Source: Thiobacillus sp. 65-29 (GTDB taxonomy: Bacteria > Pseudomonadota > Gammaproteobacteria > Burkholderiales > Thiobacillaceae). Taken from it: 33,390 nt of DNA. A program made the translations under genes and the position numbers. Under the pieces are notes generated by a model that saw nothing but the letters and a program-made list of their open reading frames with translations, was not told the origin of the DNA and did not search any database. The stretch is from contig MKWN01000002.1 in NCBI GenBank assembly GCA_001899775.1, positions 1 to 33,390 on the forward strand, in the 5' to 3' direction. Of this stretch, positions 4,958 to 24,978 are shown piece after piece (position 1 is the stretch's first letter; each line of letters begins with the position of its first letter).

Positions 4958-4994
4958 CCGCTCACCCTTCACCCCAAAAAAGGGATTGTCTATC

Positions 4995-6392
4995 GTGCAT
5001 AGCGCCCCGCATCTCCGCCCCCCGTCGATCGACCGCGTCCTCAACTGGAGCGCGGTCGTCCCACTGATCGCCGAATACGGTCGCGAACCGGTGCTCGCCG
5101 GAACGCGCCGCGTGCTCGACCATGCCCGCGAGGCCGCGCGCGGCGGCGCGCCGGTCGACTACACCGAGGCCGCGCTGGCATTCGAGCTTGCCGCACACCT
5201 CGCCGAGCGGCACGCGCCGCGCCTCAAGCCCGTGTTCAACCTCACCGGCACGGTGCTGCACACCAACCTCGGTCGCGCGACACTACCGGACGCGGCGGTC
5301 GACGCGCTCGTGAAGGCGGCGCGCTCGCCGTGCGCGCTGGAATACGACCTGGCAAGCGGTGGCCGCGGCGACCGCGACGACGTGGTCGAGGGCGTGCTGT
5401 GCGAGCTGACCGGTGCCGAGGCCGCCACCGTGGTCAACAACAACGCCGCCGCGGTATTTCTGCTGCTCAACACACTGGCGATGCGGAAACAGGTGATCGT
5501 CTCGCGCGGCGAACTGGTGGAAATCGGCGGCGCCTTCCGCGTGCCTGACATCATGAGCCGCGCCGGGGCGAAGCTGGTCGAAGTCGGCACCACCAACCGC
5601 ACCCACCTGCGTGACTTCGCCGACGCCATCCACCCGCGCAGTGCCCTGCTGATGAAAGTGCACACCAGCAACTATGCGATCCAGGGCTTTACCGCCAGCG
5701 TGCCGGAGGCGGAACTGGCGGCGCTGGCCCACGCCAGCGGCCTGCCTTTCGTCGTCGACCTCGGCAGCGGCACGCTCACCGACCTGGCCCGCTTCGGCCT
5801 GCCGCGCGAACCGACTCCGCAGGACTCGATCACCGCCGGCGCCGACCTCGTGAGCTTCAGTGGCGACAAGCTGCTGGGCGGACCGCAGGCCGGCATTCTG
5901 GTCGGCAGCCGCGAATTGATCCGGCGCATCAAGAAAAATCCGCTCAAGCGCGCGCTGCGCGTCGGCAAGCTCACCCTGGCGGCGCTGGAGGCGGTGCTGC
6001 ACCTTTATCGCGACCCCGACCGCCTGCCCGAACGGCTCACCGCGCTGCGCCTGCTGACACGGCCGCAGACCAATATTCATGATCAGGCCCTGCGGTTGCT
6101 GCCGACCATGCAGCAGGCGCTCGCCGGCTGGCCGGTCGGCGTGACCGTCGAGCCCGCGCTGTCGCAGATCGGCAGCGGTTCGCTTCCGGTCGACCGTTTG
6201 GAAAGCTGGGCGCTGGTCGTAAAGCCCGCCACGCGCAGGACCGGCGTGCTGCATGACATCGAAGCCGCACTGCGCGGGCTGCCGCAACCGGTGATCGGCC
6301 GCATCGCCGACGGTGCACTGCGCCTCGACCTGCGCTGTCTCGACGACGAGGCAGGATTCCGCGCGCAGCTCGCAGGGTTGGCCGCAGCATGA
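4995..6392 (+). CDS. selA: L-seryl-tRNA(Sec) selenium transferase
   Basis: PLP enzyme that converts Ser-tRNA(Sec) to Sec-tRNA(Sec) using selenophosphate. Family signatures are clear: [48 protein letters not shown] and the PLP lysine in [12 protein letters not shown]. Two starts are possible. TTG at 4986 sits one base after the AGGG of the ribosome site, too close. GTG at 4995 lies ten bases after AGGG and is preferred, giving 465 residues against about 463 in E. coli. The stop overlaps the selB start (ATGA), so SelA and SelB are translationally coupled. The gene is 37 nt behind fdhE. Confidence 0.97.
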
Positions 6393-8296
6393 TCATCGGC
6401 ACCGCCGGTCATATCGACCACGGCAAAACCACGCTGGTGCGCGCGCTCACCGGCGTCGACACCGATCGGCTCGCGGAGGAGAAAGCGCGCGGCATCAGCA
6501 TCGAGCTGGGCTACGCCTACCAACCCGCAGCGGACGGCGGCGGCGTGCTCGGCTTCGTCGACGTACCTGGCCACGAACGCTTCATCCACACCATGCTCGC
6601 CGGCGCGGCAGGCATCGATTTCGCGCTGCTGGTGCTGGCCGCCGACGACGGTGTCATGCCGCAGACGCGCGAGCATCTTGCCATCCTCGATCTCCTCGGT
6701 GTCACGCGTGGCGCGCTCGCGCTGACCAAGATCGATCGCGTCGACGCCGCGCGCATCGGCGACGTGACGCGCGACGCCCGCGACCTGCTCGCCGGCACCG
6801 CGCTCGCCGGCAGTCCCGTGTTCCCCGTCGCGGCGGTCAGCGGGCAGGGGCTGGGCGCGTTGCGCGACCATCTGCACACCGAGGCGCGAACACGGCCGCG
6901 GGCCGAAGAGGCCGGCGGCTTCCGACTGGCGGTCGACCGCAGCTTCACCTTGAAGGGCGCGGGTACCGTCGTCACCGGTACCGTATTCGCCGGTCGCGTC
7001 GAAGTCGGTGACGAGCTGGTGGTGACGCCAAGCGGAAAATCGGTTCGCCTGCGCAGCCTGCACGTGATGAACCAGGCCGCGCAATCGGGGCAGGCCGGGC
7101 AGCGCTGCGCACTCAATCTTGCCGGTATCGCCAGGGACGAAATTGCCCGTGGCGACTGGATTGTGGCGCCGCGTCTGCACGCGCCCACCGCTCGCTTCGA
7201 CGTGCGGCTGCACCTCTCGCCGCAGGCGCCCGCGCCACTCGCCCACTGGGCGTCGGTCCACCTGCACCTGGGCGCGGCGCATGTCATGGCGCGGGTGGCT
7301 CTGCTCGAAGGCGAAATGCTTGCCCCCGGCGCGTCCATGCTGGCGCAGCTGGTCGCCGACCAGCCGCTTGGCGCGCTGACCGACGACCGCTTCATCCTGC
7401 GCGACGCCACCGCGCGCCACACCCTCGGCGGCGGCACCGTGCTCGATCCCGACGCCCCGGCGCGCAAGCGCAAGACGCCGCTGCGGCGCGCCGAGCTGGC
7501 CGCCCTGGAAACCCCCGATCCCGCCAGGCGTCTGGCGTGCCTGCTCGACCTCGGCGGGGTGGACCTCGACCGCCGCGCCGTGCACTGGAACCACAACGAT
7601 CTCGCCGCCCACCTGCCGGCCGGCAGCGCACGCGTGCACGCCGGTCAGGAGGACTGGGCGTTTTCCAGCATGCACTGGACGAGCCTTCGTGATAAATTTC
7701 GCGCCGACCTCGCCGGTTTTCACGAACGCTTTCCCGACGAGCAGGGGCCGGCGGTCGCCCGTGCCCGCCGCATGTTCTTCCCCCGGCTGTCCGCGCCGGT
7801 GTTCACCGCGCTCGCCGATTCACTCCTCGCCGACGGCAGCCTGCAACGCAGCGGGGCATGGCTGCATCTGCCGACCCACACGCTCGTCCTCAGCGGTGAC
7901 GACGAGGTATTGTGGCAGCGCATCCAGCCCTGGCTCGCCGAGTCACCGCTCGACCCGCCCTGGATGCGCGACCTGGCAAAACGGGCCACGCGCGACGAAG
8001 CCGCGATGCGCCACCTGTTGCAGAAGCTCGCGCGGCAGGGCAAGCTCTACCAGGTCGTGCGCGATCTCTTTTACCTGCCCGAAGCCGTCGCCCGGCTTGC
8101 GGCACAGGTGCAGGAACTGGAGGATGCCAGCGGTGCGGCCCGCGCCGCGGAATTCCGCGACAAGAGTGGCCTCAGCCGCAAGCGCGCGATCCAGGTACTC
8201 GAGTTTTTCGATCGGGTGGGCTACACGCGCCGCGTACGCGAAGCCCACCGGTTGCGCAACCCGGAGCTGTTCGGGGGTGGCGCGCGCAGAATTTGA
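6389..8296 (+). CDS. selB: Selenocysteine-specific elongation factor SelB
   Basis: GTPase that carries Sec-tRNA(Sec) to UGA codons marked by a SECIS hairpin. The 635 residues show an EF-Tu-like G domain: G1 GHIDHGKT at 7-14, DVPGH at 58-62 and TKID at 113-116. Two beta-barrel domains follow, then a long C-terminal region (about 370-635) that should form the winged helices binding the SECIS RNA; a typical piece is [28 protein letters not shown]. The length is close to E. coli SelB (614). It overlaps selA by four bases. A REP-like element and selC follow. Confidence 0.97.
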
Positions 8297-8430: not shown

Positions 8431-8525
8431 GGAAGGGATGCGTTCCTGGTGGTGCGGCCGGACTTCAAATCCGGTTGGGGGTGTCAGTCGCTCCCGGGTG
8501 GGTTCGACTCCCACTCCCTCCGCCA
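8431..8525 (+). tRNA. selC: tRNA-Sec (UCA anticodon)
   Basis: The 95-nt gene aligns along its length with E. coli selC. The anticodon loop CTTCAAA (8463-8469) holds TCA at 8465-8467, in a CCGGA/TCCGG stem. A long variable arm (GGGGGTG paired with CGCTCCC, ending at 8495), a T-arm GTGGG-TTCGACT-CCCAC (8498-8514), discriminator G and an encoded CCA (8523-8525) are all present. The D-stem has six pairs with one U-U mismatch. The 5' acceptor strand GGAAGGGA (8431-8438) has eight bases, but the 3' strand TCCCTCC (8515-8521) has only seven, so one A is bulged. It reads UGA with SelA/SelB and lies 134 nt after selB. Confidence 0.95.
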
Positions 8526-11980: not shown

Positions 11981-12022
11981 GAGGTTTCCAAAATGGAAAT
12001 AGCGCGCCAGGAGGGGAGCCCT

Positions 12023-12682
12023 GTGAATTCCTCCCTTGAATCGGTGCTGCAGCATCCCGGCATCTGGCGCGGCAGCCAGCGCGCGCAGGCGGCCGAGGCC
12101 GTGCTGCCGACCGGGTTCGCCGCGCTGGACGCGGTGCTGCCGGGCGGCGGCTGGCCGCGTGGCGCGCTGACCGAGCTGCTGATCCGGCGGCAGGGCATCG
12201 GTGAGCTCAGGTTGCTCACGCCGGCGCTGGCGCGCCTGTCGGAAGAAGACGGCTGGCTTGCCTGGGTGGCACCACCTTACGTGCCCTATGCCGCGGCGCT
12301 CGCCGCGGCCGGTATCGACTTGGCACACGTGCTGGTGGCGAAGCCCGCCAGCGACGCCGACACCTGGTGGACGGCGGAGCAGGCGTTGCGCTCGGGGGCA
12401 TGCGGGGCGCTGCTGGCGTGGCTGCGCGCGGCCGACGAGCGGCGCATGCGCCGCCTGCAACTGGCAGCCGAGACGGGTCGCGCCTGGGGCGTGCTGTTCC
12501 GCCACGCGCGTCTTGCCACGGAGCGTTCGCCCGCCGCGCTGCGCCTGCTGCTCGAACCCGCAAGTGAAGGGCTTGCGGTGCGCGTCCTCAAGCGGCGCGG
12601 CGGGCCGGTGAACCGGCCGCTGGTGGTGGCCTTGCCCGACGCGGGACGCACGACGTCCGTGCTGTCGCTGGCGCGTTCCTGA
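12023..12682 (+). CDS. imuA: Translesion synthesis-associated protein ImuA
   Basis: RecA-like accessory protein of the ImuA-ImuB-DnaE2 mutasome, which copies past DNA damage during the SOS response. Recognisable parts are LQHPGIWRGS near the start, LPTGFAALDAVLPGGGWPRGALTELL (a degenerate Walker A region in two pieces) and the C-terminal RRGGPVNRPL. The GTG at 12023 is preferred because AGGAGGGG lies just before it, giving 219 residues; an ATG at 11993 would add ten residues. It follows lexA by 42 nt with no terminator. Confidence 0.9.
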   Translation: MNSSLESVLQHPGIWRGSQRAQAAEAVLPTGFAALDAVLPGGGWPRGALTELLIRRQGIGELRLLTPALARLSEEDGWLAWVAPPYVPYAAALAAAGIDLAHVLVAKPASDADTWWTAEQALRSGACGALLAWLRAADERRMRRLQLAAETGRAWGVLFRHARLATERSPAALRLLLEPASEGLAVRVLKRRGGPVNRPLVVALPDAGRTTSVLSLARS

Positions 12683-14269: not shown

Positions 14270-17200
14270 ATGTCCTACGCCGAACTCCACTGCCTCTCCA
14301 ACTTCACCTTCCTGCGCGGTGCGTCGCGCCCGGAGGAACTGGTCGCGCGCGTGCATGAACTCGGCTACGCGGCGCTCGCCATCACTGACGAATGCTCGCT
14401 CGCCGGCGTCGTGCGCGCGCACGTGGCGGCGAAGGAGGTGGGCTTGAAGCTCATCGTCGGCAGCGAAATCGAATTCAGCGAAGGCACGCGCGTGGTGCTG
14501 CTGGCAACCGACCGCGCGGGCTATGGCAATCTTTCCGCGCTCATTACGCGCGGGCGGCGCAGTGCGATCAAGGGACGTTACAGGCTTTCGCTCGCCGACC
14601 TTGCCGATGGCGTGCCCGGCTGCCTCGCTCTACTGCTCGCCGACCCGCCGCCAACGCTTGCACACGCGCAAAGCATCGCCGCACGCTTCCCCGGCCGCGC
14701 CTGGCTCGCGGTGGGGCTGTTCCGTGCGCCCGACGATGCCGAGCGGCTCGGCGCGGCGATCGAGCTGGCTGAAACATCCGCCCTGCCGATGGTTGCGGCG
14801 GGCGAGGTGCACATGCATGTCGCCGGACGGCGCGCGCTGCAGGACACGCTCACCGCGATCCGTCTTGGCGTGCCGGTGTTCGACGTGGGCAACGCGCTCC
14901 ATCCCAACGCCGAGCGCCATCTGCGCGCGCCCGCCGACCTGGCCCGGCTTTATCCGAAGGCCTTGATTGACGCGACACTAACGATCGCCGCGCGCTGTAG
15001 CTTTTCGCTCGATACGCTGCGTTATGAATACCCGGAAGAGCTGGTGCCGCCCGGCGAGACCGCGATCGGCCATCTGCGCAAGCTGACCGAGGAAGGTCTT
15101 GCCCTGCGCTTTACTGCAGGTACGCCAGAGGCGGTGCGTGCGCAGATCGAACACGAACTCGCGCTGATCGAGGAACTCGGCTACGAGCCGTACTTCCTCA
15201 CCGTGCACGACATCGTCCGTTTCGCCCGTCGCCGCGGCATCCTCTGCCAGGGGCGCGGTTCGGCGGCGAATTCGGCGGTGTGCTACGCGCTTTTCATCAC
15301 CGAGGTGAATCCGGCGTGCATGGCGATGCTGTTCGAACGCTTCATCTCGCGCGAGCGCAACGAGCCCCCCGACATCGACGTCGATTTCGAGCACGAGCGG
15401 CGCGAGGAAGTGATCCAGTACCTCTACGCCAAGTACGGCCGCGACCGTGCCGCGCTCGCCGCGACGGTGATCAGCTACCGCCCAAGGAGCGCGATGCGCG
15501 ACGTCGGCAAGGCGCTCGGCTTCGACCTCGAGCAGGTCGACCGCCTGGCCAAGTCCATGGCGTGGTGGGACGGCCGCAAGATCAAGCCCGAGCGCCTGAT
15601 GGAAGCGGGCTTCGATCCTGCCAACAGAAAAGTCGCGCTGCTGATCCGGCTGGTCGACGAACTGGTCGGCTTTCCGCGCCACCTCTCGCAGCACGTCGGC
15701 GGCTTTGTCATCGCGCGCGGACAGCTCTCGCAACTGGTGCCGGTCGAGAACGCGGTAATGCCCGAGCGCACCCTCATCCAGTGGGACAAGGACGATCTCG
15801 ACGCGCTGGGGCTGCTGAAGATCGACGTCCTCGCGCTCGGCATGCTCTCGGCGATCCGCCGCGCGCTCGACCTCGTGAGCAGCATGCGCGGGTGGCCGTT
15901 CGCGATGAGCGACGTGCCGTCCGAGGACCCGGCGGTGTACGAGATGATCGGCCGCGCGGACACGCTCGGCGTGTTCCAGATCGAGTCGCGCGCGCAGATG
16001 GCGATGCTGCCGCGCATGAAGCCGCGCCGCTTCTACGACCTGGTGATCGAAGTTGCCATCGTGCGTCCGGGACCGATCCAGGGCGGCATGGTGCATCCCT
16101 ACCTGCGTCGCCGCGAAGGCACCGAGCCCGTTACCTATCCGAGTGAAGCGGTGCGCGGCGTGCTGGAAAGAACGCTCGGTGTGCCGATCTTCCAGGAACA
16201 GGTGATGCAGCTCGCGGTCGTCGCCGCCGGTTTCACACCGGGCGAAGCCGACCGGCTGCGCCGCTCGATGGCGGCATGGCGCAGGAAGGGCGGGCTCGAT
16301 GCATTCGAGCAACGCCTCATCGACGGCATGCGCGAACGGGGTTACACGGAGGATTTCGCGCGGCAGATTTTCATGCAGATCCAGGGATTCGGCGAATACG
16401 GTTTTCCCGAATCGCACGCTGCGAGTTTCGCACTCCTGGTCTACGTCTCGGCCTGGCTGAAGCGCCACGAGCCGGCGGCGTTCGCCTGTGCGCTCCTGAA
16501 CAGCCAGTCGATGGGCTTCTACGCGCCGGCGCAGATCGTGCAGGACGCGCGCCGCCACGGGGTGGAGGTGTTGCCGGTCGACGTGCTGGAAAGCGAGTGG
16601 GACTGCACGCTGGAGCAGGGGTCAGGATTCAGGGGTCAGGATTCAGGGGGTGGAGGTGGGGGAGAGGGGCAAGGCCCGACCCAAGCACAAAGCACCCCCT
16701 CTCCGCTGGAACGATTGCCCGCTCCCCTTCGGGGAGAGGGCTGGGGAGAGGGGGGGCGTGCATGCGAAGGCACGAGCCCGCCCGCCCTCCGTCTCGGCCT
16801 GCGCCTGGTCAATGGCTTTTCCCTCGAAGGCGCCGCGCGCCTGACCGCGGCGCGCGCGCAAAAGCCCTTCGCCAGCGTCGACGATCTCGCCGCACGCAGC
16901 GGGCTCGATGCGCGTGACCTCAAGTGCCTCGCCGCCGCCGGTGCGCTGGCCCGTCTGGCCGGCCATCGCAGGCAGGCTTATTGGGATGTCGCCGGCATCG
17001 AGCGAGCCAACCCGCTCGCCATGGCGCGCGCTGAAGAGCCGCAGCCCGACTTGTTTCCACTCAGCGAAGGCCAGGACCTCGTCGCCGACTACGCCAGCCT
17101 GGGCCTCAGCCTCGGCCGCCATCCGCTCGCGCTGCTGCGCGACCGTCTGCGACGCGAGCGGATCGTTACCGCCGAGGCACTGCGCCATCTGCCGCACGGC

Positions 17201-17482
17201 CGCCTCGCGCGCGCCGCCGGCCTCGTGCTCAACCGCCAGCGCCCCGGCACCGCGAGCGGCGTCACCTTCCTCACCCTGGAGGACGAGACCGGGCATGTGA
17301 ACGTGGTCGTGTGGCGCGACCTCGCCGAGCGGCAGCGGCGCGAACTACTCGGCGCGCGCCTCCTGGCCGTCTATGGCACGCTCGAGCGGCAGGGCGACGT
17401 GGCGCATCTTGTCGCCGGGCATCTGCGGGATATGACGCCGCTGCTGGGCAATCTGGTCACGCATTCGCGGGATTTTCATTGA
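14270..17482 (+). CDS. dnaE2: Error-prone DNA polymerase DnaE2 (ImuC)
   Basis: C-family polymerase that performs SOS mutagenesis with ImuA and ImuB. The 1070 residues start with a PHP domain (AELHCLSNFTFLRGASRPEEL) and continue with GRGSAANSAVCYAL and the catalytic loop PDIDVDFEHERR (D368, D370, D372). ISYRPRSAMRDVGKALG, FGEYGFPESHAASFALLVY and a C-terminal OB fold (SGVTFLTLEDETGHVNVVVW) follow. Residues about 783-837 are an unexpected Gly/Pro/Ser-rich insert encoded by repeats, between DWDCTLE-type sequence (here EWDCTLE) and ALRLGLRLVNGF. Without it the protein would have the usual length of about 1015-1050. The frame is intact. The ribosome site before 14270 is weak. Confidence 0.96.
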   Translation: MSYAELHCLSNFTFLRGASRPEELVARVHELGYAALAITDECSLAGVVRAHVAAKEVGLKLIVGSEIEFSEGTRVVLLATDRAGYGNLSALITRGRRSAIKGRYRLSLADLADGVPGCLALLLADPPPTLAHAQSIAARFPGRAWLAVGLFRAPDDAERLGAAIELAETSALPMVAAGEVHMHVAGRRALQDTLTAIRLGVPVFDVGNALHPNAERHLRAPADLARLYPKALIDATLTIAARCSFSLDTLRYEYPEELVPPGETAIGHLRKLTEEGLALRFTAGTPEAVRAQIEHELALIEELGYEPYFLTVHDIVRFARRRGILCQGRGSAANSAVCYALFITEVNPACMAMLFERFISRERNEPPDIDVDFEHERREEVIQYLYAKYGRDRAALAATVISYRPRSAMRDVGKALGFDLEQVDRLAKSMAWWDGRKIKPERLMEAGFDPANRKVALLIRLVDELVGFPRHLSQHVGGFVIARGQLSQLVPVENAVMPERTLIQWDKDDLDALGLLKIDVLALGMLSAIRRALDLVSSMRGWPFAMSDVPSEDPAVYEMIGRADTLGVFQIESRAQMAMLPRMKPRRFYDLVIEVAIVRPGPIQGGMVHPYLRRREGTEPVTYPSEAVRGVLERTLGVPIFQEQVMQLAVVAAGFTPGEADRLRRSMAAWRRKGGLDAFEQRLIDGMRERGYTEDFARQIFMQIQGFGEYGFPESHAASFALLVYVSAWLKRHEPAAFACALLNSQSMGFYAPAQIVQDARRHGVEVLPVDVLESEWDCTLEQGSGFRGQDSGGGGGGEGQGPTQAQSTPSPLERLPAPLRGEGWGEGGRACEGTSPPALRLGLRLVNGFSLEGAARLTAARAQKPFASVDDLAARSGLDARDLKCLAAAGALARLAGHRRQAYWDVAGIERANPLAMARAEEPQPDLFPLSEGQDLVADYASLGLSLGRHPLALLRDRLRRERIVTAEALRHLPHGRLARAAGLVLNRQRPGTASGVTFLTLEDETGHVNVVVWRDLAERQRRELLGARLLAVYGTLERQGDVAHLVAGHLRDMTPLLGNLVTHSRDFH
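16616..16783. repeat. Repeat cluster inserted in frame in dnaE2
   Basis: Begins with a 14-nt unit GGGGTCAGGATTCA present twice in tandem (16618-16645). CCCTCTCC-type arms follow: a pyrimidine-rich arm near 16691-16700, a tight hairpin CTCCCC-TTC-GGGGAG, and purine-rich GGGGAGAGGG arms ending near 16757. The total length is a multiple of three, and no stop is created. The sequence is unlike the codon pattern on either side. Confidence 0.8.
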
Positions 17483-18535: not shown

Positions 18536-19255
18536 TCAGATCGGCAGGAAGATCATGCTGGCGAAGTTGACCACACCGAAGCGGATCGCGCGGCTGGTCT
18601 TGTCCTCGACGATTTTCGCGAGCGTGTCCTCGATGCCGATGAGCTTGCCGAATTCACGCTCGAAGCTGAGGTTGGCGGTGCCGCCTGCTTCCATGCTGTT
18701 GGAGACGAGGATCGCTTCGCCGCGCTCGTTGCGCGCATTGGACAGCTTCCACACGATGGCCTCGGTGTTGCGCGCGGCGTTGTAGAGCTTCTGCGCATCG
18801 ACTTCGCTCAGCAGGTAGAACTCGGTCTGGTGATTGAACGCCGCCATGTGCATCACCAAGAGGCCCTTCATCAGCGCGTGCACCCGGTCGCCGGTGAAAT
18901 CGGCGCGCCACGGCTCGCGCAGCGCATGCTCCCACTGGATATCCCCGGGCGGCGCTGCCTGCCAGTGTGCCACCGGATCGAACAGGGTGGCGGTGGCCGC
19001 CTCGGCGCTCGTCTGTCCGCTCTTGCGCCATTCGTTGGGATTGCGCCGGTACAGTTTCAGCGTGAGCGTTTTCAGGATCGCGAGGATTTCCTGCTGATGA
19101 ATCTCGATCACGTTGTCGACGTCGCCCTTCGCCAGATCCTTCACGCTGAAGCTGCGCGCGCTGCTGGTGCCATCCTTGCGCTGGATGGCGGAGGTGCTGC
19201 AGGCAGCCAGCAGGGCGGTGAAGGTGAAAACGACGGCGAGGACTAGGCGGCTCAC
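18536..19255 (-). CDS. Predicted lipoprotein (239 aa), unknown function
   Basis: Starts at GTG 19255, which overlaps the selO stop (GTGA). The N-terminus is a lipoprotein signal: basic residue, hydrophobic stretch, then LLAAC with the lipidated cysteine at 19. The mature part is mostly helical (EIHQQEILAILKTLTLKLYRRNPNEW; DRVHALMKGLLVMHMAAFNHQTEF) and ends in a hydrophobic piece ASMIFLPI. I do not recognise a named family. Tight coupling to selO suggests a joint role or joint regulation, but nothing in the sequence says which. Confidence 0.82.
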   Translation of the reverse strand: MSRLVLAVVFTFTALLAACSTSAIQRKDGTSSARSFSVKDLAKGDVDNVIEIHQQEILAILKTLTLKLYRRNPNEWRKSGQTSAEAATATLFDPVAHWQAAPPGDIQWEHALREPWRADFTGDRVHALMKGLLVMHMAAFNHQTEFYLLSEVDAQKLYNAARNTEAIVWKLSNARNERGEAILVSNSMEAGGTANLSFEREFGKLIGIEDTLAKIVEDKTSRAIRFGVVNFASMIFLPI

Positions 19256-20718
19256 GAAGAGCAGCTTACCTCAATTGTGCGCGCCCAGTCAGGCGGCTCG
19301 GCGGCATAGGTCTCGAATTCCGGCTGTTCGTCGTAGGGGCGCGTCAGCAGGCGACGCAGGCGTTCGATTTCGCTGTAGTCACGCTGGTCGGCGGCGCGGC
19401 GGATGGCCGTCTCGGCGAGGTGATTGCGCAGGATGTATTTGGGATTGACGCGCCGCTGCGCGGGCGCCCGTTCCGTGTCCTGCGAGCCCTGCCGCCGCAG
19501 TGCGGCGCCATAGCGCGCGGCCCAGGCGTCGAACGCCGCACGGTCGATGAAGAGATCGCGCAGCGGCGCGTTGAGCGCGCCGGCGGTGCTGTCGAAATCG
19601 CACAGACGGCGCATGAAGATCGTGTAGTCGACGCGATTCTGCGCCAGGAGTTGCAGCACATCCATGATGAGAGACACGGTATCGTCGCCAGGCGCGAGAC
19701 CGAGCTTCGCTTGCATGCGCCCGAGGTAGGCGCGGCCGAAGGCCTGCGGATAGTCACCGATTGCCTGCGACGCCGTTTCCACCGACATCAGCGGCACCAG
19801 CGCCTGGGCGAGCTTGGTCAGGTTCCATGCGGCGACGTCCGGTTGCTGGTCGAAGGCATAGCGGCCGCCGGTGTCCGAGTGATTGCAGATGAAACCCGGA
19901 TCGAAGGCGTCGAGAAAACCGAACGGCCCGTAGTCGAGCGTGAGCCCAAGGATCGACATGTTGTCGGTGTTCATCACCCCGTGCGAAAAACCCACCGCCT
20001 GCCACTGTGCCATCAGCTCGGCCGTGCGCAAGGCGACCTGGCGCAGGAACTCGGGGTAGGGGTCGGCAAGATCCGCGAGCTCCGGGTAGTAGCGCGCGAT
20101 GACGTAGTCGGCGAGTTGCCGGATCGGTTCGACCTGGTTGCGGTAGTAAAAAACTTCAAATGATCCGAAGCGCACGAAGCTTGGCGCCAACCGCGTCACC
20201 AGCGCCGCGGTTTCCTCGTCCTCGCGGTAGACCGGGTGGTCGCTGCCGACGATGGCGAGCGCGCGGGTGGTCGGGATGCCGAGCGCGTGCATCGCTTCCG
20301 AGCAAAGAAACTCGCGGATGCTCGAGCGCAGCACCGCGCGGCCGTCGCCACCGCGCGAGTAGGGCGTGCGCCCGCCCCCCTTGATCTGCACTTCCCAGCC
20401 TTCACCCTTGGCGTTCCTCACTTCGCCCAGCAGGATCGCCCGGCCATCGCCCAGTTGCGGCACGTAATGGCCGAACTGGTGTCCCGCGTAGAGCGCGGCG
20501 AGTGTGTCCATGCCCGGCAGCAGGCGGTTGCCGGCGAGCGTTTCAATCAGTTCCGGGCGCGCCATCTCGCCGGGATCGAGATCGAGCAGGGCCAGTGCCT
20601 CCGGGCTGTAGCAGACCAGGTACGGGCCGGGTACCGGCGTCGGACAGACGCGCGAGTAATAGGCCTCGGGCAGACGCGCGAAGCCGTTGTCGAAATGCAG
20701 GGATTCGAGTGTGGCCAT
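19252..20718 (-). CDS. selO: Protein adenylyltransferase SelO (YdiU/UPF0061 family)
   Basis: Pseudokinase that transfers AMP from ATP to protein Ser/Thr/Tyr residues; in bacteria it is linked to redox stress. The 488 residues carry GAGHQFG-type sequence (here YAGHQFGHYVPQLGDGRA), Lys113 in QIKGGGRTPYSR, Glu136 in SSIREFLCSE, the catalytic HGVMNTDN with Asp252/Asn253, and Asp262 in LDYGPFGF. These numbers agree with the known bacterial SelO active site. The C-terminus is EVSCSS, with Cys where eukaryotic SelO has selenocysteine, so this copy is not a selenoprotein. It is first in a three-gene minus-strand operon. Confidence 0.95.
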   Translation of the reverse strand: MATLESLHFDNGFARLPEAYYSRVCPTPVPGPYLVCYSPEALALLDLDPGEMARPELIETLAGNRLLPGMDTLAALYAGHQFGHYVPQLGDGRAILLGEVRNAKGEGWEVQIKGGGRTPYSRGGDGRAVLRSSIREFLCSEAMHALGIPTTRALAIVGSDHPVYREDEETAALVTRLAPSFVRFGSFEVFYYRNQVEPIRQLADYVIARYYPELADLADPYPEFLRQVALRTAELMAQWQAVGFSHGVMNTDNMSILGLTLDYGPFGFLDAFDPGFICNHSDTGGRYAFDQQPDVAAWNLTKLAQALVPLMSVETASQAIGDYPQAFGRAYLGRMQAKLGLAPGDDTVSLIMDVLQLLAQNRVDYTIFMRRLCDFDSTAGALNAPLRDLFIDRAAFDAWAARYGAALRRQGSQDTERAPAQRRVNPKYILRNHLAETAIRRAADQRDYSEIERLRRLLTRPYDEQPEFETYAAEPPDWARTIEVSCSS

Positions 20719-21744: not shown

Positions 21745-22686
21745 CTACTCGTACAGCCGCACCGCGAAGCCGTCGTGCTGCCACCCGGCTTTCGGCTGCC
21801 AGCCGGCGGCCTGTGCCAGCGCGTCGAATTCGCGGGGGACGAACTTGTAGGAATACTCGGTGAGCAGGGTTTCGCCGCAGTCGAAGCGGAAGCGCTGGCC
21901 CGCGACGTTCACTGTCTGCTCGGTGAGGCTCGCGAGGTGCATTTCGACGCGGCCTTCCAGCGGGTTGTAGAAGGCGTAGTGGCGGAAGCGTGCCAGGTCG
22001 AAATCGGCAGCGAGTTCGCGGTTGATGCGCGCGAGCAGGTTGAGGTTGAACGCGGCGGTGACGCCGGCCGCGTCGTTGTAGGCCGCGTGCAGGCGCTGCG
22101 GGTCCTTCTTGAGGTCGAAGCCGATGAGCAGGCGGCCGTCCGCACCGGCCAGGCGGCGGAAGCGCGCGAGCAGGGCGGTGGCGGCGGCGGGCGGGAAGTT
22201 GCCGATGCTGGAGCCGGGGTAGTAGACGAGGTGCGGGCCGGCGGCGAGCCAGGGATCGGCCGCATCGAGCTCACCGAGGAAGTCCATTGCCAGCGCGCTC
22301 ACGTCGATGTCCGGGTAATCGTGGGCGACGGCCTGCGCGGAGGCGGCCAGCGGTGCACCGGCGATGTCCATCACGACCAGTCGGTTGGGGCGCAGGGCGT
22401 CGAGCAGCCGGCGCACCTTGGTGCAATCGCCGGCACCGGGTTCGACGATGCTCTCGACCTTGCCCAGCGCGGTGGCGATTTCGGGCAGGTGGGATGCCAT
22501 CAGCGCCTGCTCGGTGCGGCACAGCGCATACTCGGGCTGCGTGCAGATCGTCTCGAACAGGTGGCAGCCCGCTGCGTCATAGAAATATTTCGGTGGAATG
22601 CTCTTCGGGCGGGTCGCGAGCCCGGCCAGCACGTCGGCACGCAGCCTGTCCTGTGCGGCGGGGAAGTCCTGGAAGCTGAACCGCAC
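21745..22686 (-). CDS. egtD: L-histidine N-alpha-methyltransferase (hercynine synthase)
   Basis: SAM-dependent enzyme that trimethylates histidine to hercynine, the first step toward ergothioneine and selenoneine. The 313 residues follow EgtD: PPKYFYDAAGCHLFETIC (31-48), the SAM loop EPGAGDCTK (82-90), VVMDIAG (104-110), YYPGSSIGNF (155-164), and LLTEYSYKF (274-282), with the Glu/Ser pair expected to bind the histidine amino group. The GTG start at 22686 directly abuts the selD stop (TGAGTG), so translation is coupled to selD. This is an unusual partner for egtD and points to selenium use. Confidence 0.94.
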   Translation of the reverse strand: MRFSFQDFPAAQDRLRADVLAGLATRPKSIPPKYFYDAAGCHLFETICTQPEYALCRTEQALMASHLPEIATALGKVESIVEPGAGDCTKVRRLLDALRPNRLVVMDIAGAPLAASAQAVAHDYPDIDVSALAMDFLGELDAADPWLAAGPHLVYYPGSSIGNFPPAAATALLARFRRLAGADGRLLIGFDLKKDPQRLHAAYNDAAGVTAAFNLNLLARINRELAADFDLARFRHYAFYNPLEGRVEMHLASLTEQTVNVAGQRFRFDCGETLLTEYSYKFVPREFDALAQAAGWQPKAGWQHDGFAVRLYE

Positions 22687-23760
22687 TCAGGCACCAACCA
22701 CGACGTCGCGACCGGGGCCCAGCCGGCCGATTTTCGTCGCCTGCGCGAAGCCGTGGCGGCGGAAGACGTCCATCACCGTGTCGCGCGCCTCGGGGGCGCA
22801 GCTGACCAGCAGGCCGCCGCTGGTCTGCGGATCGGTGAGTACGGCGCGCTGCCAGTCGGCGATGCCGTCGGCGAACGTGACCTCGCTGCCGTAGCTCGTC
22901 CAGTTGCGCTGGCTCGCGCCGGTGACGTACCCGGCCCGCGCGAACTCGCCGACGCCGGGCAGGAGCGGCAGCCGCCTCAGTTCGACCGCGGCCGACACCT
23001 TGGACGCGCGGGTGATCTCGAGCAGGTGGCCGAGCAGGCCGAAGCCGGTGATGTCGGTCATCGCGTGCACGCCGGGCATGTCGGCGAGCTCGGCGCCGGC
23101 GGTGTTGAGCTGGGTGGTCGCGGCGATCATCGCGGCGTACTGGTCGGCGCTCAGCGCGCCCTTTTTCAGGGCTGCGCTGTAGATGCCGACGCCGAGCGGC
23201 TTGCCGAGGATCAGCACGTCGCCGGCCTGGCCGCCGGTGTTCTGCTTGACGCGGCGCGGGTCCACCACGCCGATGCCGACCAGGCCGTAGATCGGCTCCG
23301 GTGCGTCGATCGAATGGCCGCCGGCGATCGGGATGCCTGCCGCCTTGCACACCGCTTCGCCACCCGCGAGGATGCGGCGGATCACGCGCTGGGGCAGCTT
23401 GTCGATCGGCATGCCGACGATGGCCAGCGCGAACAGCGGCTTGCCGCCCATGGCGTAGACGTCGGACAGCGCATTGGTCGCGGCGATACGGCCGAACTCG
23501 TAGGGGTCGTCAACGATGGGCATGAAGAAGTCGGTGGTGGCGACGATCGCCTGTTCGTCGTTCAAGCGGTATACCGCGGCGTCGTCGCCGTGTTCGACGC
23601 CCACTAGCAGGTCGGGGTGGGAAGCCGCCCGATGCGAGGCGAACGGGGTGTCGGCGAGGATGTCGCGCAGCACCGCCGGCGCGATCTTGCAGCCGCAGCC
23701 GCCGCCGTGGGAGAAGCGGGTGAGGTGAATCGGTTCTTCGGGTTCGTTCGTGTCGTCCAT
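22687..23760 (-). CDS. selD: Selenophosphate synthetase (selenide, water dikinase)
   Basis: Makes selenophosphate from selenide and ATP. It supplies SelA and, in some bacteria, selenoneine synthesis, where the SelD homologue is called SenC. The 357 residues contain SHGGGCGCKI with active-site Cys22 and Lys25, DDAAVYRL, TTDFFMPIVDDPYEFGRI, NALSDVYAMGG, GGHSIDAPEPIYGL and DITGFGLLGH. The key residue is cysteine (TGC), not Sec. The ATG at 23760 is chosen by length and alignment; an upstream TTG is possible. It is the only selD in the window, so it could serve both the Sec pathway and a small-molecule pathway. Confidence 0.96.
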   Translation of the reverse strand: MDDTNEPEEPIHLTRFSHGGGCGCKIAPAVLRDILADTPFASHRAASHPDLLVGVEHGDDAAVYRLNDEQAIVATTDFFMPIVDDPYEFGRIAATNALSDVYAMGGKPLFALAIVGMPIDKLPQRVIRRILAGGEAVCKAAGIPIAGGHSIDAPEPIYGLVGIGVVDPRRVKQNTGGQAGDVLILGKPLGVGIYSAALKKGALSADQYAAMIAATTQLNTAGAELADMPGVHAMTDITGFGLLGHLLEITRASKVSAAVELRRLPLLPGVGEFARAGYVTGASQRNWTSYGSEVTFADGIADWQRAVLTDPQTSGGLLVSCAPEARDTVMDVFRRHGFAQATKIGRLGPGRDVVVGA

Positions 23761-23820
23761 GGAAATGCTTCCCTCGTGGAAATTCTGTCTAGAATCCAAT
23801 TAACCATAGTGCATCATGCA
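23761..23820. promoter_or_regulatory. Divergent promoter region, selD-egtD versus egtB/senA-like gene
   Basis: The 60-nt gap separates the two divergent starts, so both promoters must lie in it or in the coding ends. It is AT-richer than its surroundings. The palindrome TGCATCATGCA (23810-23820) touches the ATG of the plus-strand gene. I see no consensus -35/-10 pair and no Shine-Dalgarno before 23821. Confidence 0.4.
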
Positions 23821-24978
23821 ATGAACCAAATCCGACCCGTCAGCGGCTATCCTGCAACGGCGCTCGTCAAGCGGCTGGCGCAGGCGCGCGGTCGCCTGCG
23901 CGCACTGATCGACTGCCTGCCCGAGGGCGGCTGGCTGGGGCCGCGCGCGGAACACCTGAATCCGCCCCTGTGGGAGTATGGACACATCGTCTGGTTCCAG
24001 GAGCGCTGGTGCCTGCGCGCACAAGCCAACGGCGGCTACGCGCCCAGTCTGCTCGATGACGCCGATGCGCTGTACGACTCGTCGAGCGTGGCGCACGATC
24101 TGCGCTGGGACCTGCCCCTGCCACGGCCGGCGGTGCTCGATGCCTACGCCGACCGGGTGGCCGGGGCGGTCGCCGAGCGTCTCGCACGCGGCGCCGATGA
24201 CGAGATCGCTTACTACGCCGAGCTGTCGCTGTACCACGAGTTGATGCACGTCGAGGCCTGGTGGATGGCGTTCCAGAACCTGGGCTATGCGCCACCCGCG
24301 CACGCTCCGGGCGATGCTCTGCCGCCCGCGCGGCGACTGACGTTCGATGCGGGCGAGGTGGCGCTGGGCAGCGGCGCCGACGCGGGCTTCATTTTCGACA
24401 ACGAGAAATGGCGCCATCGCGTGCCGGTCGCGGCGTTCGACATCGATGCGGCGCCGGTGTCCGAGACGAGCTTCACGGCGTTCGTCGATGCCGGTGGCTA
24501 CCGGAACAAGGGCTGTTGGTCGGACGCGGGGTGGGCCTGGCGCGAGGCCGCGGGTACGAGCCAGCCGCTCTACTGGCGAAGCGGGGAGGGCGGCTGGCGG
24601 GTGCGGCGCTTCGACCGCTGGGATGCGCCAAGGTCCGACGCGCCGATGCTGCACGTGAACCGCTTCGAGGCCGAGGCCTGCGCCGCCTGGATGGGACGAC
24701 GCCTGCCGGGCGCCGCGGAGTGGGTACGGGCAACGACGCATCCCGACTTTCGGCGCGGCATGGCCTGGGACTGGCTGCGGGATCCCTTCGCGCCATATCC
24801 CGGCTTCTCGCCCGACCCCTATCGCGACTATTCCCGGCCGTGGTTCGACACCCATTGGGAACTGCGCGGCGGCGGGCCGTTCACCGATGCGGCGTTGAAG
24901 CGTCCCGGCTATCGCAATTTCTACCGGCCGCACCGGCGCGACCCGTTCGCGGGCTTTCGCACGGTCGGCGGCGCATAG
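23821..24978 (+). CDS. EgtB/SenA-family iron-dependent sulfoxide/selenoneine synthase
   Basis: A 385-residue two-domain protein. The N-terminal DinB-like part gives the three iron-ligand histidines at the expected places: His55 in WEYGHIVWFQE, and His139 and His143 in LYHELMHVEAWW. The C-terminal part is an FGE-sulfatase fold: VSETSFTAFVDAGGYR, SDAGWAWREA, HVNRFEAEACAAWMGRRLP, and RNFYRPHRRDPFAGFRT. In ergothioneine synthesis EgtB joins hercynine to a thiol; in selenoneine synthesis its homologue SenA joins hercynine to a selenosugar. I cannot tell the two apart by eye. Divergence from selD-egtD favours a selenium role. The gene ends four bases from the end of moaA. Confidence 0.9.
   Translation: MNQIRPVSGYPATALVKRLAQARGRLRALIDCLPEGGWLGPRAEHLNPPLWEYGHIVWFQERWCLRAQANGGYAPSLLDDADALYDSSSVAHDLRWDLPLPRPAVLDAYADRVAGAVAERLARGADDEIAYYAELSLYHELMHVEAWWMAFQNLGYAPPAHAPGDALPPARRLTFDAGEVALGSGADAGFIFDNEKWRHRVPVAAFDIDAAPVSETSFTAFVDAGGYRNKGCWSDAGWAWREAAGTSQPLYWRSGEGGWRVRRFDRWDAPRSDAPMLHVNRFEAEACAAWMGRRLPGAAEWVRATTHPDFRRGMAWDWLRDPFAPYPGFSPDPYRDYSRPWFDTHWELRGGGPFTDAALKRPGYRNFYRPHRRDPFAGFRTVGGA

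Follow-up and report, generated by a model that had tools for sequence, protein, structure and literature searches.

Does a selenophosphate synthase gene that is coupled to a gene for hercynine synthesis, and that faces a gene of the EgtB/SenA family, mark a pathway to selenoneine or one to ergothioneine? The question is raised by a stretch of 33,390 nt from Thiobacillus sp. 65-29 (contig MKWN01000002.1 of assembly GCA_001899775.1), referred to here as the window, which lies on contig C2 of a source genome of 2.90 Mb in 61 contigs. An earlier note on this DNA, made from the sequence alone, had proposed a selenoneine-type locus. Our analysis makes it highly probable that a selenoneine pathway is encoded here in two parts, of which this locus is the larger and a separate senB locus the smaller.

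On the reverse strand, egtD (21745–22686) encodes a histidine N-alpha-methyltransferase of the hercynine-making type, which scores 364.5 bits against the NCBIfam profile TIGR03438 (cut-off 290.9) and matches six solved chains, all of them EgtD-type methyltransferases. The adjoining gene on the same strand, selD (22687–23760), encodes a selenophosphate synthase (TIGR00476, 436.6 bits; cut-off 125) that would act as SenC. Its translation contains a glycine-rich GGGCGCK motif with a cysteine, and its start was placed at ATG 23760, with an in-frame TTG at 23799 open as well. The selD stop codon (TGA, 22689–22687) abuts the GTG start of egtD (22686–22684), giving TGAGTG at 22689–22684. A divergent intergenic region of 60 nt (23761–23820) separates the starts of selD and senA; no sigma-70-like promoter or terminator was found in a consensus scan of 23650–23950. 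On the forward strand, senA (23821–24978), for a putative selenoneine synthase of the EgtB/SenA/OvsA family, has an ATG start, encodes 385 amino acids and converges on moaA. The touching codons and the gene diverging 60 nt away, both described by the earlier note, are thus as the sequence reads.

Profiles, tree and residues together indicate that gene 23821–24978 is senA rather than egtB; it was read as such because its product passed the SenA cut-off, failed the EgtB cut-off, fell in a SenA/OvsA clade and carried three signature residues. Against the SenA profile NF041186 the protein scored 430.1 bits (cut-off 420), and 429.7 bits in the genome search, again over the cut-off, whereas the EgtB profile TIGR03440 gave 244.4 bits, below its cut-off of 360. 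TIGR04373 gave 84.4 bits (cut-off 71), and the domains found were DinB_2 and FGE-sulfatase. The best solved relatives were the selenoneine synthase sequences 8ryz and 8k5i (∼254 bits), which we take to be from Variovorax paradoxus, followed by OvsA (159.7 bits) and EgtB 4x8b (155.4 bits); the two SenA chains outscored OvsA by about 95 bits.

The same separation was seen in the trees. In a 124-row tree the window protein fell in an 85-row clade with SenA and OvsA (Shimodaira–Hasegawa-like approximate likelihood ratio test, SH-aLRT, 99), with the 39 EgtB rows apart; its own subclade comprised 23 of the 124 rows (SH-aLRT 100). A 59-row tree gave support of 100/99 for the SenA/OvsA clade and 100/100 for the window subclade, with EgtB outside. 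In approximately unbiased (AU) tests, a forced grouping of the window subclade with EgtB of betaproteobacterial type was rejected (p 0.012), and one with actinobacterial-type EgtB only marginally so (p 0.049). A place well inside the sulfur-using EgtB clades, which the earlier note had said would speak against it, is therefore not what the tree that it proposed returns.

The signature residues are most easily described by what we take to be the numbering of EgtB 4x8b. At position 87, arginine is present in 38/39 EgtB rows and histidine in 84/85 SenA-clade rows; at position 91, tryptophan is present in 85/85 SenA-clade rows and 0/39 EgtB rows; and at position 137, all 85 SenA-clade rows have methionine and all 39 EgtB rows glutamine. 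The window protein carries H, W and M at these positions. In EgtB, R87 and R90 presumably bind gamma-glutamylcysteine. Histidines also occupy the positions of EgtB H51, H134 and H138, which we assume to be the three iron ligands. D416 of EgtB was rejected as a discriminator, since 31 of 31 betaproteobacterial EgtB rows have no aspartate there either. Identity as EgtB was rejected on the profile score, the residues, the tree and the AU tests. The SenA model also matched three proteins (L032, L037 and L038; 483–496 bits) that group with OvsA and have no senB found nearby; NF041186 therefore passes OvsA-grouped proteins as well.

The earlier note had seen no glycosyltransferase in the window and had suggested that senB might lie elsewhere. 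The genome was searched with TIGR04348, the NCBIfam profile for the selenosugar synthase SenB: eight places matched at an expectation value (E) ≤0.001, none of them on C2, and the sole match over the cut-off was at C58:3825–4754 (429.4 bits; cut-off 300). The possibility that senB is missing from the genome was rejected on this result, which joins the SenA profile, the tree and the residues in support of a selenoneine-type locus. The gene adjoins one for a TrmH-type RNA methyltransferase. When the C58 protein was aligned to solved SenB chains and positions were matched by counting along the alignment, the residues matching G19, N20, T23, R155 and K158 were kept, and EGGANV stood for EGGAHV. 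Both PMC10891094 and PMC10702425 treat these positions.

Profile searches thus placed SelD/SenC, SenB, SenA and EgtD in one genome. There was a single egtD match, and no second SenA-model match at E ≤0.001 in a search that did not extend to unrelated ergothioneine enzymes such as rhodanese-type EanB. The SenA model gives about 302–396 bits to the 31 tree rows of betaproteobacterial EgtB, so a canonical EgtB, had the genome encoded one, should have been detected. With one egtD, one SenA-model match and no canonical EgtB found, hercynine is predicted to be converted to selenoneine.

Conservation of the locus was followed in the 36 nearest named loci (L078–L113) and in an extended set of 40 genomes (L078–L117). 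These nearest relatives by SenA, up to 76% identical, are mostly titled Thiobacillus or Hydrogenophilales; Thiobacillus denitrificans and T. thioparus are among the named records that carry the senA locus. In 24/36 loci egtD, selD and senA stand together, so the arrangement is not a matter of chance, and the adjacency of selD and egtD, whose absence from relatives would have told against the earlier note, is common. Another six loci have selD–senA without an adjoining egtD (one of them, L103, on a truncated contig), five have egtD–senA without selD, and one, L109 (Hydrogenophilus), has egtD–senA with selD and senB close by, all in one locus. Across the extended set, egtD is present in 39/40 genomes and senB in 37/40 (33/36 for the first 36).

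The place of senB is also conserved. Among the best 30 of 38 senB matches, a TrmH-type gene stands beside senB in 29 loci, the exception being L176 (Hydrogenophilus). The order senB–senA–trmH was found in 14 of the 150 SenA-family loci scanned, which argues that this place of senB is common to other families and that the pathway is split here. Only 1/23 rows of the window subclade have senB within 4 kb, as against at least 52/85 rows across the SenA clade as a whole; the latter figure is a minimum, since many of the loci are short and two bare reference chains are counted among the rows. The senA of this lineage may have moved away from the senB–trmH place or may have taken over from a copy that was lost: the AU tests did not discriminate, with p values of 0.287 when it is held with the trmH-block senA rows and 0.28 with the V. 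paradoxus group.

Co-occurrence was then counted in a sample of 150 genomes from the order. SenA was over its cut-off in 37; SenB was over its cut-off in 46 and matched at E ≤1e-40 in 50. Of the 37 SenA genomes, 34 have SenB at the latter threshold. The 50 senB-bearing genomes have SelD in 49, EgtD in 38, SelA in 25 and SelU in all 50, so the presence of SelD can be explained without SenB.

We infer each chemical step from the V. paradoxus enzymes. EgtD would trimethylate histidine to hercynine, and SelD, in the SenC role, would provide selenophosphate. SenB, encoded beside the TrmH-type gene on C58, would then form a selenosugar from selenophosphate and a uridine diphosphate (UDP)-sugar. SenA, an iron enzyme, would join the selenosugar to hercynine, and the resulting selenoxide would break down to selenoneine. 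This chemistry follows PMC9814287, PMC10891094, PMC10702425, PMC10903977 and PMC11448449; PMC11929427 presents SenB as a selenate-reducing enzyme, at odds with the structural papers. The V. paradoxus sen cluster (senA, senB, senC) has the same three families, SelD/SenC, SenB and SenA, each over its curated cut-off here, and the window SenA and the C58 SenB are related to solved SenA and SenB chains. Unlike in that cluster, senB here lies on a contig of its own apart from senA, selD is coupled to egtD and SenA belongs to a separate subclade. The EgtD/EgtB ergothioneine pathway is similar in that EgtD supplies hercynine and in the DinB_2 and FGE-sulfatase domains and three iron-ligand histidines of SenA, but differs in the residues at EgtB positions 87 and 137 and in the canonical EgtB that was not found in this genome. 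The only paper found to name both selenoneine and Thiobacillus, PMC6479598 (2019), predates the pathway. No report of a split sen pathway, or of senB without senA, was evident from titles and the openings of abstracts, a coverage that leaves out most subscription papers.

Could the locus nevertheless make ergothioneine, with a sulfur-using EgtB and with selD present only as a member of the region's selenocysteine genes? EgtD beside EgtB is a common pairing in the order, and selA, selB and tRNA-Sec are on the same contig. The shortfall against the EgtB profile, the position outside both EgtB clades, the SenA-clade residues at positions 87 and 137 and the presence of senB in the genome nevertheless make this very improbable. 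Slightly less credit is due to an OvsA-type selenoxide synthase that would act on histidine and lead to an ovoselenol-like product; ovoselenol is named beside selenoneine in PMC13188914. OvsA lies in the same large clade and has the H, W and M residues in common with the window protein. Against this, the neighbouring gene is egtD, the SenA sequences are the closer matches by the margin given above, and grouping of the window subclade with OvsA, L032 and L038 was rejected (p 0.032), in a test with a single characterised OvsA on a long branch.

We regard as least probable of all that the senB beside trmH belongs to some other selenosugar pathway and that the window SenA takes another selenium donor. 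The lack of a senB within 4 kb of senA in 22/23 subclade rows would suit such a scheme, as would the 11/50 senB genomes of the order that have neither EgtD nor a SenA over the cut-off, which imply that senB can have another role. It is opposed by the co-occurrence of senB and senA in 37/40 genomes, by their presence together in L109 and by the SenB found within 4 kb in most rows of the SenA clade.

A split selenoneine pathway is also not without difficulties of its own. The SenA score is just 10 bits above the cut-off, and at 385 residues the protein falls 31–42 short of the two solved SenA sequences. The clade also takes in OvsA, which has the same signature residues, so these residues do not fix hercynine as the substrate, and the AU tests leave more than one place for the window subclade within the SenA clade. 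With senA on C2 and senB on C58, the sen genes do not form one contiguous cluster. No senB match accompanies senA in 3/36 close genomes (G157, G175 and G180, counted regardless of completeness), and SenB is likewise lacking in 3/37 SenA-bearing genomes of the order sample (G033, G059 and G104). G084 has no EgtD match (E ≤1e-20) and yet has SenA over the cut-off (481.9 bits) beside senB and selD (L252, G084:C8:38000–47500), a gene set that is unexplained by the pathway as drawn. Rhodanese-type EanB is an example of another route from hercynine, and such routes lie outside the search behind the predicted fate.

The split selenoneine pathway would share selenium with two other sinks. Nearer the start of the window, all on the forward strand, are selA (4986–6392; TIGR00474, 569.1 bits, cut-off 267.9), whose product is another possible selenophosphate consumer, the selenocysteine elongation factor gene selB (6389–8296; TIGR00475, 466.9 bits, cut-off 242.25) and a tRNA-Sec with anticodon tca (8431–8525; ARAGORN). 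A formate dehydrogenase gene set is also present, its alpha subunit cut by the contig start. The earlier note had suggested that one selD might feed two selenium pathways and that the genome be searched for a second copy. A second full-length selD was found at C57:17515–18444 (432.8 bits), adjoining selU, which weakens the suggestion in that sharing is not required. The source genome is alone among the 50 senB-bearing genomes in having two SelD matches at E ≤1e-40. In the SelD tree the window copy joins 16 rows (99/99) made up of SelD from Hydrogenophilales and from its own family. The C57 copy belongs to a group of 18 rows (81/98), of which 17, the C57 copy included, have a selU match no more than about 0.3 kb away. 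Among the rows of this tree, L268, L269, L270 and L271 have their selU match on another contig. The G+C content is alike across the window, C57 and C58 loci. Selenocysteine, selenouridine and selenoneine are three sinks for two SelD proteins, either of which may feed SelA. Nine of the 50 genomes (G005, G012, G046, G055, G060, G090, G100, G131 and G140) have SelD matches interrupted by a single in-frame TGA, which is what a SelD with selenocysteine should show.

EgtD is absent from 12 of the 50 senB-bearing genomes. The 11 that also lack SenA over the cut-off keep SelD (G014, G017, G028, G043, G050, G064, G069, G088, G095, G106 and G108; L158 9574–11588 is an example). Three of them (G017, G064 and G108) have a SenB match that does not reach the SenB cut-off. 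In G043, of the source genome's family, senB and selD are adjacent. No partner enzyme for SenB was recognised in the neighbourhoods of L158, L159, L161–L164 and L171. Where senA is found in other families, four senB genomes in which no SenA reaches the cut-off carry a different gene next to trmH, flanked by senB on the other side (L161 7898–8866, L162 10035–10889, L163 10536–11456 and L164 8063–8977). It was considered as a SenA substitute; it encodes a pentapeptide-repeat protein (by domain scan for L162–L164; L161 is alike by eye). A diverged SenB-like protein (180–229 bits; cut-off 300) is encoded at L171 8969–10042, L172 9473–10546 and L170 9005–10048, and adjoins selD in L171 and L172. 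In L171 its gene is between thyA and fabI, and no partner of the SenB–SelD pair was recognised among the neighbours, which are an RND efflux adaptor gene, a dihydrofolate reductase-like gene, thyA, fabI and an oligopeptide-type ABC transporter.

From these gene contents, senB genomes without SenA and EgtD may make a selenosugar for another end. More tentatively, and with the odds against it, SenB could be a more general pathway part. In many betaproteobacteria this selenosugar synthase would have a fixed site on the chromosome and would feed more than one end product. Selenoneine would be one of these, here with EgtD serving selenium alone, and an undescribed selenosugar-derived metabolite would be another, in the senB genomes without SenA and EgtD.

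Elsewhere in the window, a gene for a SelO-type protein adenylyltransferase lies near the sen locus (19252–20718), and a SelO match is also present in 24/36 of the L078–L113 loci. The imuA and error-prone DNA polymerase genes (11993–12682 and 14270–17482) are likely to form a DNA-damage mutagenesis cassette.

As judged from sequence, the locus represents a known pathway in a rearranged form, with its products predicted. Sulfur oxidisers of the Thiobacillus type are accordingly expected to make selenoneine rather than ergothioneine by way of EgtB, and the sen pathway can be overlooked where senB is expected adjacent to senA. In the order sample senB occurs more widely than senA, and the named senB-only genomes are a direct place to seek a new selenometabolite. 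The selenosugar may have other fates, and the orphan senB may matter more than the split locus itself.

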